From Methyloligella sp. (lineage in GTDB: Bacteria; Pseudomonadota; Alphaproteobacteria; Rhizobiales; HXMU1428-3): a DNA stretch of 64,000 nt. The stretch covers positions 1 through 64,000 of the forward strand of contig BQJJ01000010.1 in assembly GCA_021604645.1 (NCBI GenBank), in the 5' to 3' direction. The stretch's first letter is position 1; the number at the start of each line of letters is the position of its first letter. Below are positions 1-37,868 of this stretch, piece by piece. The translations under genes and the position numbers were made by a program. The notes under the pieces are model-generated. The model had not been told where the DNA came from, did no database searches, and saw nothing but the letters and a program-made list of their open reading frames with translations.

Positions 1-10
1 TAAAACGCGA

Positions 11-45
11 CGGTTGCTGGTGGGCAACCGAAGGAGCACTAAAAA
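11..45 (+). repeat. Small palindromic repeat, copy 1 (GGTTGC type)
   Basis: A 7-bp stem, CGGTTGC (11-17) with GCAACCG (24-30), encloses a TGGTGG loop and is followed by the family tail GAAGGAGCACTAAAA. The tail contains the sequence GAAGGAG upstream of the ATG at 55, and a second purine run AGAGGA lies between them. The first ten bases of the window (TAAAACGCGA) resemble the end of another copy at 34071-34080, so this copy may sit in a small cluster that starts outside the window. Confidence 0.7.
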
Positions 46-3963: not shown

Positions 3964-4041
3964 ATGTCTAAAAACTAAAAATGATAAAGCTGGAGGGTGT
4001 CACACATAAGGGGGCACTAGCGCTTAGGGTTTTGTAAAGTT

Positions 4042-4100
4042 GCGGATGCTCTGTGGGCATCTGAAGCACAAAAAAGAGCAACCGAAGGGGCACTAAAAGA
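4042..4100 (+). repeat. Small palindromic repeat, nested pair (GATGC type inside GCAACC type)
   Basis: An inner hairpin GGATGC (4044-4049)/GCATCT (4057-4062) with a GTGG-containing loop and the tail CTGAAGCACAAAAAA is followed at once by GCAACCGAAGGGGCACTAAA (4078-4097). That is exactly the 3' half of a GGTTGC/GCAACC copy. A partial 5' arm (GGGTT, about 4028-4032) lies before the inner element. The simplest reading is that one element sits in the loop of another. The rest of the 3964-4342 gap shows no gene. Confidence 0.65.
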
Positions 4101-12311: not shown

Positions 12312-14852
12312 TCAAAGACCACTTCTGTGACTTTTACCCTTTTTCGTCCGCGTCCCAGGCTTTCCACCTGAAGAACGCGGCCGTGCTTTCTTGGATAATG
12401 TAGTCTTCTTTTTAGATTTAGATGTTTGCTTAGCATCTGAAATCTCATGATTAGCGTTGGATGCCTCGCCGGTTTCTGGTGAGAAATCTGAAGGCGCACT
12501 AACAAAGCCATCTGAAGCGCGCTTTTTTGCGGATGCTTTGTGGGCATCTAAAGCACCACTACGTGCGGATGTTTCACCCTTAGTAAGAGGTCGTTCAGTA
12601 GTAGAAGGACCCATTTCATCAAGGTTATTCTTTTTTAAGCGAGATTTTCGTTTCTTATCAATAGAAGGAACGGAAAGATCACTGCCAGTAAAACGTTTGG
12701 AAAGAGGATCATTCGCAACCAATAGTTCATGATCTTTCAATCGCTTAATCTCATCTCTAAGACGGGCCGCTTCTTCAAATTCAAGATCTTCTGCAGCCTT
12801 CATCATTTTCTGTTCTAGATCTTGCAGCACAGCCTCAAAATTGTGCCCAACCGTTGCAACATCAGCGAGTGGATCATTGGTATCAGAGGTGACATCTTCA
12901 TCATCGTAAAGGCTATCAAGAATATCGCCTACATTCTTTGCAACTGTTTTAGGTACGATCCCATGTTCAATATTATAAGCAATCTGTTTTTCCCGCCGGC
13001 GATCTGTTTCATCAATGGCTCGTTGCATAGAGCCTGTTACCCGGTCAGCATAAAGAATGACCCGGCCTTCAACATTTCTAGCTGCCCGCCCAATTGTTTG
13101 AACAAGTGATGTCTCAGATCGCAAGAACCCTTCTTTATCAGCATCAAGAATGGCAACAAGTGCACATTCAGGAATATCCAAGCCTTCCCGAAGCAAGTTA
13201 ATACCAATAAGAACATCAAAAGCCCCGAGACGAAGGTCGCGGATAATCTCTATGCGCTCTAAAGTGTCTATATCAGAATGCATATATCGCACGCGAACAC
13301 CCTGATCATGGGCATATTCAGTTAGGTCTTCAGCCATACGTTTGGTTAGGGTCGTGACAAGGCTTCTAAACCCCTTAGCAGCAACGGCTTTGCATTCATC
13401 AATCAGGTCATCAACTTGAGTGCCAGCAGGACGAATAATAATATCAGGATCTGTAAGTCCCGTTGGGCGAATGACTTGCTCAGCGAAAACTCCGTCTGTT
13501 TGCTCAAGCTCCCAATCACCAGGTGTAGCCGAGACAAAAGTGGTCGGTGGGCGCATAGAATCCCATTCAGCAAACCTCATCGGTCGGTTATCAAGACAAG
13601 AGGGCAATCGAAATCCAAAATCTGCAAGTGTGTGTTTTCGTTTAAAGTCACCGCGGAACATAGCATTCAGTTGGCCAACGGTAACGTGACTTTCATCAAC
13701 AAAAACAAGGGCATCATCAGGGAGATATTCAAACAATGTCGGCGGCGGGTCGCCGGGGTTACGACCAGTGAGATAGCGAGAATAATTCTCAATGCCAGCG
13801 CATGACCCTGTTGCTCCCATCATCTCCAGATCAAATGAAACACGTTGTTCTAGGCGCTGTGCTTCAAGTAGCTTGTTGACCTTTTTAAGCTCAGCAAGCC
13901 GCTCTTGGAGTTCTTGTTTAATACCAATCATAGCTTGGTCAAGTGTTGGTTTCGGCGTCACATAGTGCGAGTTCGCATAGAGTTTCACACTCTCAAAACT
14001 ATTAGATTTATGCCCGGTTAAAGGGTCAAATTCTGTCAGCTCTTCAATCTCATCACCAAATAAAGAAATCCGCCAAGCTCTGTCTTCAAGGTGAGCCGGC
14101 CAAATTTCAATCGTATCACCCCGAACACGAAACGTACCTCTGCCAAAAGCCTGATCATTGCGTTTGTAATGGAGAGCGACAATATCTGCGATAAGCTGTT
14201 TGTGTTCAATTCTCTCATTAATAGCAAGCGGCAAAGTCATAGCTGTGTAGGTTTCAACTGAACCGATACCGTAAATACAAGAAACGGACGCAACAATAAT
14301 CACATCATCTCGCTCTAGAAGAGCACGTGTTGCAGCGTGGCGCATCCGGTCAATCTGTTCGTTTACACTTGCTTCTTTTTCAATAAATGTATCAGAGCGA
14401 GGAACATAAGCTTCAGGTTGGTAATAATCATAATAAGAAACAAAATATTCAACCGCATTATCAGGAAAGAAGTTTTTAAATTCTCCGTAAAGTTGGGCCG
14501 CTAAAATTTTATTCGGCGCCAAAATAAGGGCAGGGCGCCCGGTTTGCTCAATCACGTTAGCAATAGAAAACGTCTTACCCGTTCCCGTTGCCCCAAGCAA
14601 AACCTGGCTTTGCTCACCATCAGCTAAACCTTCGACAAGCGTTTTAATCGCTGTAGGCTGGTCACCCTTAGGGGTAAAATCAGACTTAATTTTAAAAGGA
14701 ACGCCGCCTTCAGATTTAACTGGCCGCTCTGGCCTGTGCGGCACATAAGGAGCCAATCGCTCTTCATGACAAAGAGGATGTGTGTCAAGCAGTGGTTGAG
14801 ATACAGTCGCAATCTCTGAAGGTTTGGTCTTTATAGTACGTGATTTAGCCAT
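12312..14852 (-). CDS. uvrB: UvrABC excision nuclease subunit B
   Basis: DNA damage-verification helicase of nucleotide excision repair. It shows Walker A GATGTGKT, the beta-hairpin [12 protein letters not shown], the helicase box VFVDESHVT, motif VI region GRAARN, and the C-terminal UVR motif ([24 protein letters not shown]) that contacts UvrC. The ATG at 14852 (846 residues) is preferred over a TTG at 14888. Classical UvrB is about 670 residues; here roughly 120 extra residues follow the UVR motif, ending in a lysine-rich tail. The DNA for residues about 757-811 contains degenerate copies of the small palindromic repeat found between genes elsewhere, so part of the tail may derive from repeat insertion. 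Confidence 0.96.
12420..12590 (+). repeat. Degenerate small palindromic repeats inside the uvrB coding tail
   Basis: On the plus strand (antisense to uvrB) the family landmarks recur. GCGGATGCTTTGTGGGCATC (12529-12548) is a near-perfect GATGC/GCATC hairpin followed by TAAAGCACCACTA. TCTGAAGGCGCACTAAC and TCTGAAGCGCGCTTTTTT, at about 12487-12526, are two tails. GATGTTTGCTTAGCATCTGA (12421-12440) is a looser hairpin. The reading frame of uvrB stays open through all of them. Confidence 0.6.
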
Positions 14853-15079
14853 GTATAAGAATATGGTATGACAGTGGGCTTGAAACAAGAGAAAAATAAT
14901 AAAAATTGAGTGATTAAACGTGCCAATTTTTCTGTTGTTATAAATTAATAAACTGGATCAGATTTTATAAAACAAGGGCTGTCATTGGACGTCAAATCAT
15001 TTAAAATGCAGCTCATGTCTTAAAGCATATCCCCCAAATTTAGGGCCTGTAATAGAGAACAACATATAGGGTAGGAATA

Positions 15080-28380: not shown

Positions 28381-28402
28381 AAAATTGAACTCCCTTCCAG
28401 AA

Positions 28403-28612
28403 GAAGGAGTGTCGCCATTTCGGCGACAGGACATGACGCCAGAGGCGTCCGGCGCAAAAAATCAGTCCGAACGGAGCGAAGCGAGTACGGATAAGCTGAT
28501 CGTAAAAAATGAACCGCCCCTCGGAGGCCCAAGCGCTTAAGCACGGTTGCTAGTGGGCAACTGAAGTGCCACAAAAAAGCGCTTGGAATAGCCGTGAGAG
28601 AAAAAATTGAAC
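28403..28612 (+). repeat. Multi-hairpin repeat element, copy A (with inserts)
   Basis: Three hairpins in series: TGTCGCC (28410-28416)/GGCGACA (28422-28428) with loop ATTTC; GACGCC (28435-28440)/GGCGTC (28444-28449); and CCAAGCGC (28529-28536)/GCGCTTGG (28579-28586), then GAATAGCCGT. Compared with copy B it has two extra parts: about 55 bases after GGCGTCCGG, themselves able to fold, and a small palindromic repeat in the loop of the third hairpin. A 137-codon open frame read through this on the minus strand is spurious. The segment 28239-28402 holds no gene. Confidence 0.75.
28541..28577 (+). repeat. Small palindromic repeat inside a hairpin loop of copy A
   Basis: CGGTTGC-TAGTGG-GCAACTG with the tail AAGTGCCACAAAAAA lies between the CCAAGCGC and GCGCTTGG arms of the third hairpin of the multi-hairpin element. 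Copy B has only six bases (GATTAA) there. Confidence 0.75.
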
Positions 28613-32520: not shown

Positions 32521-33999
32521 ATGCCAGATTTATTAGATTTATCAATCGCTGAAGCTCGCGAAGGGCTGGATAATGGTGATTTTTCGGCTAAAGAATATAC
32601 TGAAAGCCACCTAAAAGAAATTGAAAGCGCCAACAAAGCGTTAAATGCCTTCATATTAGAAACACCGGAAAAAGCGCTAGAAATGGCAGCTAAATCTGAT
32701 GATCGTATGGCCAAAGGCGAAACCGGATTACTTGAAGGCATTCCGCTTGGCATCAAAGATTTGTTCTGTACAGATGGTGTACGCACAACAGCTTGTTCTC
32801 ATATTCTAGATGGCTTTGAGCCACCGTATGAGTCAACAGTGACGGAAAATCTATGGAATGCCGGTGCTGTTATGCTTGGCAAACTCAATTTGGATGAATT
32901 TGCTATGGGCTCCTCTAACGAGACCAGCCATTATGGTGAAGTTGTAAATCCATGGCGCCGTGATGGTGATGAAGCAAAACTAGTCCCGGGCGGGTCATCT
33001 GGTGGGTCAGCGTCAGCAGTTGCAGCTCATCTTTGTGCAGCTGCAACTGCAACAGATACAGGCGGGTCAATTCGCCAACCGGCAGCATTTACTGGTACAG
33101 TTGGCTTAAAACCAACCTATGGCCGCGTATCGCGCTGGGGAACGATTGCATTCGCCTCAAGTCTTGATCAAGCCGGGCCAATTACCCGAACAGTTGAAGA
33201 TGCTGCGCTTATGTTGCAAGTGATGGCAAGTCACGATCCGAAAGATACAACTTCAGTTGATGTAGCAGTACCTGATTACCGAAAAGAGATGGAAGGTAAA
33301 GTCAAAGGCATGACTCTTGGTATTCCAAAGGAATATCGGGTCGATGGCTTGAGCGAAGAAATTGAAGCCCTTTGGCAGCAAGGCATCGAATGGTATAAAG
33401 ATGCGGGCGCCAAAATTGTTGAAGTGAGCTTGCCTCATACAAAATATGCATTGCCTGCTTACTATATCGTAGCACCAGCTGAAGCTTCTTCTAATCTTGC
33501 TCGTTATGATGGTGTTAAATATGGCCTCAGAGTTGAAGGTGATAGCATTGACGGCATGTATGAAAACACCAGAGCTGAAGGCTTTGGAGCTGAAGTTAAA
33601 CGCCGGATTTTAATGGGAACCTATGTGCTCTCAGCTGGCTATTACGATGCGTACTATCTCAAGGCACAAAAAGTGAGAACACGCATCAAGCAAGACTTCG
33701 ATGAAGCTTTTAAGAATGTAGACGTAATGCTCACCCCGACAACACCAAGCCCGGCATTTGCAATGGGCGAAAAATCAGGGGACCCTCTAGAGATGTACCT
33801 AAATGACATATTCACAGTGACAGTGAACATGGCAGGGCTCCCGGGAATTTCAGTGCCAGCTGGCATGTCGAAATCTGGTTTACCATTAGGCTTACAACTT
33901 ATCGGCAAACCATTTGATGAAGGCACGCTACTAAAAGCAGGCCAAGTAATCGAGCAAGCCGCCGGCGAACTACCAAAACCAACAAAATGGTGGGCATAG
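32521..33999 (+). CDS. gatA: Asp-tRNA(Asn)/Glu-tRNA(Gln) amidotransferase subunit A
   Basis: A 492-residue amidase-signature enzyme, the glutaminase part of GatCAB. The catalytic Ser-cisSer-Lys triad is marked by IKDLFC (Lys), [13 protein letters not shown] and [12 protein letters not shown]. Length is normal. It is directly followed by nested palindromic repeats, and gatB lies 2.4 kb further on, behind a chorismate mutase gene and an opposing hydrolase gene. Confidence 0.96.
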
Positions 34000-34000
34000 C

Positions 34001-34075
34001 GCGGTTGCTGTGCCGGTTGCTTTGTGGGCAACTGAAGGCACGCTAAAAGATAAGGCAACTGAAGCGCAACTAAAA
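34001..34075 (+). repeat. Small palindromic repeat nested in the loop of another copy
   Basis: Outer arms GTTGC (34004-34008) and GCAAC (34055-34059), with the tail TGAAGCGCAACTAAAA, enclose a full inner copy: GTTGC (34016-34020)/GCAAC (34028-34032), loop TTTGTGG, tail TGAAGGCACGCTAAAAGAT. It begins directly after the gatA stop codon. Confidence 0.8.
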
Positions 34076-34121
34076 ACGCGATTGCCGGTAGGTAGCCGTT
34101 ATAAAGATAATACTAACGACC

Positions 34122-34235
34122 GAAGAGGGAGTGATGCCATTTCGGCATCAGGACATGACGCCTTTGGCGTCCGGTGCCTAGACCGCCCCTCGGAAGCCCA
34201 AGCGCGATTAAGCGCTTGGAATAGCCGTAAGAGAG
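34122..34235 (+). repeat. Multi-hairpin repeat element, copy B
   Basis: Hairpins TGATGCC (34132-34138)/GGCATCA (34144-34150) with loop ATTTC, GACGCC (34157-34162)/GGCGTC (34166-34171), and CCAAGCGC (34198-34205)/GCGCTTGG (34212-34219), then GAATAGCCGTAAGAGA. It aligns with copy A, and the first stem differs in both arms so that pairing is kept. A minus-strand open frame through it is spurious. Confidence 0.75.
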
Positions 34236-34240
34236 AACAA

Positions 34241-34276
34241 CGACGGTTGCTAGTGGGCAACTGAAGGAGCATAAAA
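34241..34276 (+). repeat. Small palindromic repeat supplying a ribosome-binding site
   Basis: GTTGC (34246-34250)/GCAAC (34257-34261) around TAGTGG, followed by TGAAGGAGCATAAAAA. The GAAGGAG of the tail stands nine bases before the chorismate mutase ATG at 34278. Confidence 0.75.
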
Positions 34277-34277
34277 A

Positions 34278-34589
34278 ATGACAAATAAAGCACCAAAAGA
34301 CTGCACATCAATGGAAGACGTTCGCAAAGAAATTGATCGGCTGGATGAACAGTTGGTGACTTTAATTGGAGAGCGTTTTTCATATGTGGATCGAGCCTGG
34401 CAATTAAAAGATAATCCGGCAGATGCAACAGTACCGTGGCGAATTCAGCAAGTAATTGAAAAAGTGAGAGCTCACGCAGAGGAAAAAGATGTCCCACCAA
34501 GGCTCGTTGAGGCACTTTGGAGGCAGATGATTGGCTGGTTCATTCAGTATGAAGAAGAAAAATTGGATGAAAAGCAGTCAAACGAATAA
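34278..34589 (+). CDS. Chorismate mutase (AroQ/PchB type)
   Basis: A 103-residue all-helical chorismate mutase type II protein. DCTSMEDVRKEIDRLDEQLVTLIGERFSYVDRAWQLK gives the first long helix with the Arg and Lys expected around the active site, and VEALWRQMIGWFIQYEE the last helix. The opening CTS..DVR..IDR.D resembles PchB-type isochorismate pyruvate lyases more than the prephenate pathway enzyme, but mutase activity is common in both. Its ribosome-binding site comes from the adjacent palindromic repeat. Confidence 0.85.
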   Translation: MTNKAPKDCTSMEDVRKEIDRLDEQLVTLIGERFSYVDRAWQLKDNPADATVPWRIQQVIEKVRAHAEEKDVPPRLVEALWRQMIGWFIQYEEEKLDEKQSNE

Positions 34590-36268: not shown

Positions 36269-36289
36269 CAGATGCGAAGTGGGCATCTG
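36269..36289 (+). repeat. Small palindromic repeat (GATGC type)
   Basis: CAGATGC (36269-36275) and GCATCTG (36283-36289) form a perfect 7-bp stem around GAAGTGG. The tail TAGAGTGTTAAATG is a divergent form of the family tail. Confidence 0.65.
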
Positions 36290-36310
36290 TAGAGTGTTAA
36301 ATGTGTCAGG

Positions 36311-36380
36311 GCGGATGCTTTATGCGGTTGCTTGGTAGGCAACCTGAAGAATAGAGAAGTTATCTGAAGTGCATAAAAAG
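36311..36380 (+). repeat. GGTTGC-type repeat nested in a GGATGC-type copy, upstream of gatB
   Basis: GCGGATGCTTTAT (36311-36323) is the 5' half of a GATGC copy and TATCTGAAGTGCATAAAAAG (36361-36380) its 3' half, with the right stem arm partly decayed. Between them lies GGTTGC (36326-36331)/GCAACC (36339-36344) with loop TTGGTAG and tail TGAAGAATAG. It ends 24 bases before the gatB ATG; a separate AAGAGGT provides the gatB ribosome-binding site. No gene lies in the whole 36038-36404 gap. Confidence 0.7.
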
Positions 36381-36404: not shown

Positions 36405-37868
36405 ATGTCATCTGATAAATCACATCTAGTAAAGGGCGCCACCGGAGATTGGGAGGTCGTCATCGGCCTTGAAGTGCACGCCCAGGTGACATCAAATTCA
36501 AAGCTATTTTCAGGCGCATCAACAGAGTTTGGTGGCGCCGCTAATGATCATGTCTCGTTAGTTGATGCAGCCATGCCAGGCATGCTCCCGGTGATCAATG
36601 AAGAATGCGTGAAACAAGCCGTTCGCACAGGCTTGGGCTTAAAATCAGAGATCAATCTCTTCTCTCGTTTTGACCGGAAAAACTACTTCTACCCAGATTT
36701 ACCTCAAGGCTACCAAATCTCGCAATTCCAATACCCCATCGTCGGTGAAGGTGTTGTGATCCTGGATATGAAAGATGGCTCTACCTTTGAAGTGGGTATT
36801 GAACGCCTCCATCTTGAGCAAGATGCTGGTAAATCAATGCATGACCAACACCCAAGTTACTCTTATGTTGATTTTAACCGCACAGGCGTCGCGCTAATGG
36901 AAATTGTCTCCAAGCCAGACATACGCTCATCAGAACACGCAAAAGCTTACGTCACGAAGTTGCGCACAATCTTGCGCTATCTTGGTACATGTGACGGGAA
37001 TATGGACCAAGGCTCAATGCGCGCTGATGTGAACGTCTCTGTGCGCCGTCCTGGTGAAGAATTGGGAACAAGAACAGAGACCAAAAACGTGAACTCAATT
37101 CGCTTCATTGGCCAGGCTATTGATCACGAAGTCATGCGCCAAATTGACGTTCTTGAAGATGGTGGCACCATCGATCAGGAAACATTATTATTCGACCCCA
37201 AAACAGGCAAAACCAGATCCATGCGCTCGAAAGAAGAAGCTCATGATTATCGTTACTTCCCATGCCCGGATCTACTGCCATTAGAGTTTGATCAAGCTTT
37301 TGTTGATGAGTTGAAAAAAGACCTTCCTGAACTACCAGACGAGAAGAAAGAACGGCTGATGAAGGATTATGGGCTAAACAGTTACGATGCTGGCATTTTG
37401 GTGGCAGATAAAACATCATCTGATTTCTTTGAACAAGTTGCCAAAGGCAGAGATGCTAAATTGGCTTCAAACTGGGTAACAAACGAATTTTTTGGCCGGC
37501 TGAATAAAGAAGGCAAGACAATTGAGACAAGCCCTGTAAATGCAGAGCAACTTGGCGGTATCATCGAGCTTATTTCCAAAGGTGACATCTCAGGTAAGAT
37601 CGCAAAAGAGCTCTTTGAAATCGTATGGGAAGAGGGCGGCGACCCGGCTCAAATCGTTGAAGAGCGCGACATGAAAGCTGTGACAGACACCGGTGCCATT
37701 GAAGCAATCCTGGATGAAATCATCGCCAATAACCCAAAACAAGTTGAAGGCGTAAAAGAGAAGCCTCAACTCATCGGATGGTTCGTCGGCCAGGTCATGA
37801 AACAAACCCAAGGCAAAGCCGACCCTAAAGTGGTCAATGGCATTCTGAAAGAGAAGCTTGGGCTTTAA
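36405..37868 (+). CDS. gatB: Asp-tRNA(Asn)/Glu-tRNA(Gln) amidotransferase subunit B
   Basis: A 487-residue tRNA-binding and kinase-like subunit of GatCAB. Typical segments: [11 protein letters not shown], the [24 protein letters not shown] block, [23 protein letters not shown], and a C-terminal YqeY-like tail ([26 protein letters not shown]). It is separated from gatCA by repeats, a chorismate mutase gene and an opposing hydrolase, so it probably has its own promoter. Confidence 0.97.

Follow-up and report, generated by a model that had tools for sequence, protein, structure and literature searches.

A small palindromic repeat nested in hairpin loops and oriented with replication in one Hyphomicrobiales genus

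Here we describe E1, a small, non-coding, high-copy palindromic element, new copies of which probably enter the loops of folded hairpins, both those of E1 itself and those of a second repeat, E2. Three sequence-unrelated repeats (E1, E2 and a third, E3) are oriented by replication at 97–100%, independently of gene direction, and this fixed polarity suggests that insertion is coupled to single-stranded DNA of the lagging strand. Our analysis centres on the first 64,000 nucleotides of a Methyloligella sp. contig (the window), and on the genome to which it belongs (G000) and seven relatives (G001 to G007); all eight genomes are draft assemblies, several of them metagenome-assembled genomes (MAGs), and G000 and G002 are 99% complete.

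One hairpin unit within the loop of another after gatA

The gene gatA, whose product has a Pfam Amidase match, ends in a stop codon at 33997–33999. The 78 nt at 33999–34076 hold two complete copies of the E1 hairpin unit, one within the loop of the other, confirming what a preliminary description of this DNA had noticed directly after gatA:

33999–34008, plus strand: 5′ arms of the outer E1, A5 GCGC (33999–34002) and B5 GGTTGC (34003–34008)
34010–34053, plus strand: inner E1, in the outer loop, GTGCC-GGTTGC-TTTGTGG-GCAAC-TGAA-GGCAC-GCTAAAAGATAA
34054–34076, plus strand: 3′ half of the outer E1, GGCAAC-TGAA-GCGC-AACTAAAAA

The first G of the outer arm A5 is also the last base of the gatA stop codon. 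After the insert, the outer unit continues with B3 GCAAC (34055–34059), TGAA (34060–34063), A3 GCGC (34064–34067) and a tail (34068–34076), and the conserved GTGG of its loop is not intact on this 3′ side. The inner unit, with a covariance-model match at 34010–34049 and a left boundary uncertain by about 3 nt, runs through A5 GTGCC (34010–34014), GGTTGC (34015–34020), the loop TTTGTGG (34021–34027), GCAAC (34028–34032), TGAA (34033–34036), A3 GGCAC (34037–34041) and a tail (34042–34053). The split had been placed exactly after ‘GCTGT’, an assignment that does not hold because GTG can be read equally well as part of the outer loop (TN-GTGG) or of the inner arm GTGCC. The 75-mer at 34001–34075 has 50 matching places across the genome. 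The next ORF after gatA encodes chorismate mutase (ATG at 34278) and gatB starts only at 36405; the gap proposed earlier for comparison between relatives as lying between gatA and gatB is thus one between gatA and chorismate mutase.

Form and distribution of E1

As read from 51 selected copies, E1 is a non-coding unit of about 38 nt, with a variable arm A of 3–5 nt, GG(T/A)TGC and a 6–7-nt loop ending in GTGG on its 5′ side. The 3′ side begins with GCAAC or GCATC; TGAA, which stays unpaired, comes next, and then the complement of arm A and an A-rich tail close to ACTAAAAA. Among units picked without regard to arm A, the first three pairs of this arm are formed in 73%, compared with 21% when partners are shuffled, and in 81% of the units outside the GGAG type described below; the covariation score is 0.469 versus 0.122. 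With pairing so far above the shuffled level, both stems of E1 are kept by covariation. Mean hairpin energies of the two DNA strands are −6.2 and −5.9 kcal/mol, and wobble mismatches amount to 25 G–T and 10 A–C in stem B and to 17 and 21, respectively, in stem A. The top strand folds well as RNA (z of −2.33), and the composite as bottom-strand DNA folds no better than its shuffles (z of −0.23).

In a CGAC/GGAG subtype (for example, 8–45 and 34240–34278 in the window and L134:47–121) the pairing of arm A is lost and GGAG lies just 5′ of start codons, where it has apparently been adopted as a ribosome-binding site. Units of this type stand before a start codon with an ORF in 11 of 48 cases, compared with 35 of 424 for other E1 units. 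E1 also forms direct tandem arrays (33–40 bp; L048:18710–18776, L049:7354–7524 and L038:85–165), some of which differ in copy number between G000 and G002.

Seven E1 units in the window reach a scanner score of at least 20, and six order-1 Markov shuffles of it yield none, so these units are not a product of chance. By covariance model there are at least 165 units in G000, at least 163 in each of G002 and G006, at least 153 in G003 and at least 137 in G007, with lower numbers in G004 (40), G005 (34) and G001 (3). Within the stretches that were examined, 150 units lie between ORFs and 26 inside them. Across 199 genomes sampled from the order, an E value of 1 × 10−5, a rough measure as it comes from our own covariance model, was reached only by the E1 genus and by one genome of another family. 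A pattern scan places the E1 genus, by named genomes, among the Hyphomicrobiales MAGs OFTM213, OFTM288, HXMU1428-3 and Rhodomicrobium sp. DHS20C08, and finds sparse, simple units in a few other MAGs of the Hyphomicrobiales and Alphaproteobacteria. E1 is a genus-level family of one Hyphomicrobiales genus, and has no match to any curated model of Rfam 15 at either the gathering or a relaxed E-value threshold.

Other repeat sites in the window are the following, with boundaries of E1, E2 and E3 that are uncertain by a few bases:

8–45, plus strand: E1 of the CGAC/GGAG type, just upstream of an ORF at 55
4039–4100, plus strand: nested E1 pair, GGATGC-type inner in GTTGC-type outer
12459–12560, plus strand: E1 units antisense in the 3′ end of uvrB (ORF 12312–14888, minus strand)
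28400–28600, plus strand: E2 copy whose hairpins 3 and 4 hold E3 and E1, respectively, in their loops
28456–28514, plus strand: the E3 element inside E2 hairpin 3
28540–28578, plus strand: the E1 inside E2 hairpin 4, whose arms lie at 28529–28538 and 28577–28586
34122–34236, plus strand: E2 copy, a structured repeat of about 110 nt, with hairpin 4 uninterrupted (CCAAGCGC/GCGCTTGG, 34198–34219)
34240–34278, plus strand: E1 of the CGAC/GGAG type, whose A3 arm is the GGAG ribosome-binding-site-like sequence for chorismate mutase (ATG at 34278)
36271–36292, plus strand: single degenerate E1 (GATGCGAAGTGGGCATCTGTAG)
36315–36377, plus strand: degenerate nested E1 pair upstream of gatB

Among the sites listed as nested in the preliminary description, 36311–36380 is borne out, though as a degenerate pair, and 4042–4100 is indeed nested, with an outer left arm that is truncated relative to G002. 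At 28541–28577, E1 lies in the loop of E2 hairpin 4 (CCAAGCGCTT/AAGCGCTTGG) rather than within another E1. The gene uvrB encodes 858 amino acids, and antisense units lie in its 3′ end in G000 as well as in G002; they resemble the palindromic repeats that PMC3733652 reports within DNA-repair genes.

Single and nested alleles in close relatives

Comparison of gatA orthologues gave the predicted empty site, as G006, with a GatA identity of 95%, has one uninterrupted hairpin after the gene. The nested form is present in G000, G002 and G003, whereas G005 has no hairpin there and chorismate mutase follows nearly immediately. By parsimony, the change at gatA probably ran from single to nested, an argument that stops short of proof.

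Comparison of collinear stretches of G000 and G002 reveals the same alternation elsewhere. At about 73.1 kb of C10 a single E1 in G000 is nested in G002, at about 175.7 kb of C2 a single E1 stands against a two-level composite, and at C2:363,051 single and nested alleles also differ on both sides of the outer stem (GGTTGC/GCAAC versus GGTTAC/GTAAC). Loops of E2 are filled in only one of the two genomes at 11.5, 30.8, 40.2 and 100.3 kb of C13 and at 198.8, 227.5, 297.2 and 355.0 kb of C2. At several of these loops the rest of E2 differs too, and gene conversion of E2 must therefore explain a part of them. Several loci also carry an identical E1 insert in the same loop of E2; some cases are thus due to gene conversion or block copying, and the counts exceed the number of independent events. 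Tandem growth does occur at other sites, and gene conversion or movement as a block has also spread composites and copies of E2.

Loops as the place of insertion

We removed 316 E1 units in silico and checked the rejoined flanks for another E1 unit. This yielded 35 cases of E1 interrupting E1, counted with a selection score that favours paired arms and with array copies that are not independent, in which the junction lies in the loop (34) or at the edge of loop and stem (1), and in none of the 35 elsewhere in the arms or in TGAA. A further 60 cases with the junction one base inside G|GTTGC of B5 are an artefact of tandem arrays and were set aside. The inner unit often differs in type from the outer one (GGATGC in GGTTGC, GGTTGC in GGATGC and GGTTTC in GGTTGC), and the nested pairs therefore do not all derive from one ancestral composite. 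Nesting reaches three levels at L037, and two units share one loop at L026 and L032.

An inverted-repeat search that made no reference to any repeat family gave a concordant picture, under the same unit selection: inverted repeats of 7 bp or more enclose 35 of 308 E1 units, compared with a permuted mean of 7.5 (maximum 15), and those of 8 bp or more enclose 17, where 2.6 are expected. Many of the enclosing repeats belong to hairpins of E2, a repeat of about 110 nt that is unrelated to E1 and has four hairpins, and E1 is found in the loops of hairpins 1, 2, 3 and 4, with many different arm sequences, as E3 is found in hairpin 3. Both the proposal of loop insertion over simple tandem duplication and that of loops as the preferred target are thus supported, as is the conclusion that tandem duplication alone is insufficient for the nested forms. 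No constant target-site duplication flanks E1 inserts, and some new insertions lie outside any recognisable hairpin (C13:44,639 and C2:263,823). Rare copies in E2 hairpin 1 (L124, L035 and L054) look like near-exact inversions of an insert that other loci, such as L149, carry in the opposite orientation, which would fit a flip of the loop between the arms of the hairpin.

Two ordinary MITE-like insertions, each with long terminal inverted repeats, are also present (G000:C10:77,346–77,631, with a CTAG duplication, and G002:C8:136,467–136,647). Two further sites resemble insertions of E1 into a host terminator. The first, G002:C1:124,064, has the look of an ordinary MITE flanked by a CTAG duplication and is left out of the counts. 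At the second, G002:C1:272,236, a MITE-like element that carries E1, termed E4 (TAGCGCTCC...GGAACGCTA), sits in the loop of a terminator-like hairpin of the host, and G000 has this hairpin without interruption (C2:332,383); since E1 is borne there by E4, the site counts as evidence of a host hairpin entered by E4 rather than by E1.

Orientation by replication and the search for an enzyme

Within contigs, E1 units agree in strand for 147 of 150 listed units in G000 and 145 of 150 in G002 (97–98%). A corrected GC3 skew, in which genes of the plus and minus strands are averaged to isolate the replication component at third codon positions, predicts by its sign the strand of E1 in 16 of 16 contigs, and contigs of G004 follow the same rule. 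E2 (44 of 45) and E3 (28 of 28) share the polarity of E1, and the 16S rRNA gene lies on the strand opposite E1 in G002:C1 and G000:C18. The leading strand is usually assumed to be G-rich, in which case the top strand of E1 is the lagging strand and its complement the lagging-strand template. Transcription does not set this orientation, as the genes flanking E1 are both on the plus strand in 47 cases, both on the minus strand in 42, convergent in 39 and divergent in 22, and unequal hairpin stability is an unlikely cause given the similar energies of the two strands.

Y1_Tnp (PF01797) was detected in only one of the eight genomes, G000, where two genes lie at C1:11,499–15,370; it was not detected in G002, G003, G006 and G007, which are about as rich in E1, and was rejected as a common mobiliser. 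The reverse transcriptase RVT_1 (PF00078) is present in neither G000 nor G002, and a reverse transcriptase or group II intron was rejected as well, although in draft genomes such an enzyme could sit in an assembly gap. These results leave another recombinase or lagging-strand template switching.

Comparison with known repeats

REP, BIME and REPIN sequences, which are associated with TnpA_REP/RAYT, are irregular palindromes of 20–40 nt in more than 100 copies per genome (PMC8266576, PMC2817692, PMC3116915), and E1 resembles them as a strand-specific, mostly intergenic short palindrome in more than 100 copies. It differs in an arm that varies freely with a matching partner, in the TGAA unpaired on one side, in direct repeats of a single polarity rather than alternating orientations, in nesting within its own loops and in the lack of a common RAYT; GTAG, GTGG or CGTC does not mark its 5′ foot, where the covarying arm lies, and GTGG occurs only in the loop. 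REP/BIME is the nearest known kind, and fails on tag, orientation and RAYT. In the part of PMC3733652 available to us, REP families are placed inside palindromes much as E1 is (GTAG-15 of A. variabilis, GTAG-23 of T. roseum and CGTC-1 of H. neapolitanus), but with one particular target palindrome per species and no replication polarity described, whereas E1 has repeatedly gone into the loops of its own copies and of several unrelated hairpins, level upon level. IS1397, ISPpu9/10 and ISPa11 likewise use hairpin repeats as specific targets, inserting into REPs (PMC1525189). These are full insertion sequences with their own transposases, some making short duplications, unlike the roughly 38-nt, non-coding E1.

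IS200/IS605 transposition, too, leaves no target-site duplication. E1 shares with these elements the dependence on hairpins and the coupling to the lagging-strand template (PMC6006769), its orientation being tied to the replication strand, but its top strand is on the C-rich strand and no matching transposase is common to E1-rich genomes. Rickettsia palindromic elements are also small alphaproteobacterial palindromic repeats found inside genes as well; they measure 105–146 bp, and the portions of PMC2229807 and PMC3733652 that we consulted do not describe nesting or replication polarity for them. MITEs have terminal inverted repeats and target-site duplications, whereas E1 is one hairpin. Our literature search returned no report of nested, single-polarity small repeats of the E1 kind.

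Discussion

Loop targets, the lack of a constant duplication and an orientation strictly tied to replication together suggest a reaction on single-stranded DNA at the fork. On the lagging-strand template, hairpins would fold and expose their loops, and a copy of E1 would then be joined into such a loop to give the nested structure, a joining step that we infer; at gatA, E1 would have entered the loop of an E1 already in the gap before chorismate mutase. The agent may be a single-strand recombinase of unrecognised kind or lagging-strand template switching between hairpins. We suggest only tentatively that one fork-coupled reaction, which inserts folded strands into loops with fixed polarity and uses no classical transposase or reverse transcriptase, spreads E1, E2 and E3 alike, and it is a possibility, if a doubtful one, that the spreading reaction itself is new.

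Nesting could instead result when repeats already present undergo replication slippage, template switching and gene conversion, with no dedicated insertion reaction, an account that we hold to be rather unlikely. It gains from arrays that grow and shrink between G000 and G002, from the same insert in the same E2 loop at different loci, from half-nested recombinants and from the absence of a conserved mobilising enzyme among those searched for, and lagging-strand template switching also predicts polarity; yet E1 units with many different arms sit in E2 loops that have no evident homology to E1, inner and outer units differ in type, and slippage alone predicts tandem rather than loop-only positions. 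The covariation, and a top strand that folds like an RNA, make selection for structure a serious rival. Here the repeats would be functional structures, whether RNA or a replication-polar signal like KOPS or Chi; insertion would occur anywhere, only loop insertions would survive and polarity would be selected. Compensatory change in the arms, the RNA fold, stem-B wobbles that favour the top strand and fit selection on RNA, and the ribosome-binding-site-like sequence supplied by some units all agree with this, but three unrelated repeats with one polarity and neighbours of all orientations do not suit one RNA function, many E1 copies are lone and degenerate, and G001 (3 copies) and G005 (34) live without most copies; we judge it unlikely.

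That a RAYT (TnpA_REP, a Y1 HUH enzyme) mobilises E1 as a REP, as in gammaproteobacteria, seems highly improbable: the small, irregular-stem hairpin, its high copy number, intergenic position and strand specificity, the two Y1_Tnp genes of G000 and the action of IS200/IS605 transposases on the lagging-strand template (PMC6006769) would fit, but relatives with similar copy numbers have no detected Y1_Tnp, the constant tag 5′ of the hairpin is missing, and one polarity with direct tandems is not the alternation of BIMEs. Insertion of new copies into folded loops remains the reading we favour.

The way in which REP-like repeats multiply has long been an open question. The E1 genus combines hundreds of copies, empty and filled sites in close relatives, a loop target and a near-absolute polarity of three repeats, and these features together make single-strand, fork-coupled insertion directly testable. 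Nesting also gives the relative time order of insertion events, because an inner copy is younger than the outer copy that it interrupted.
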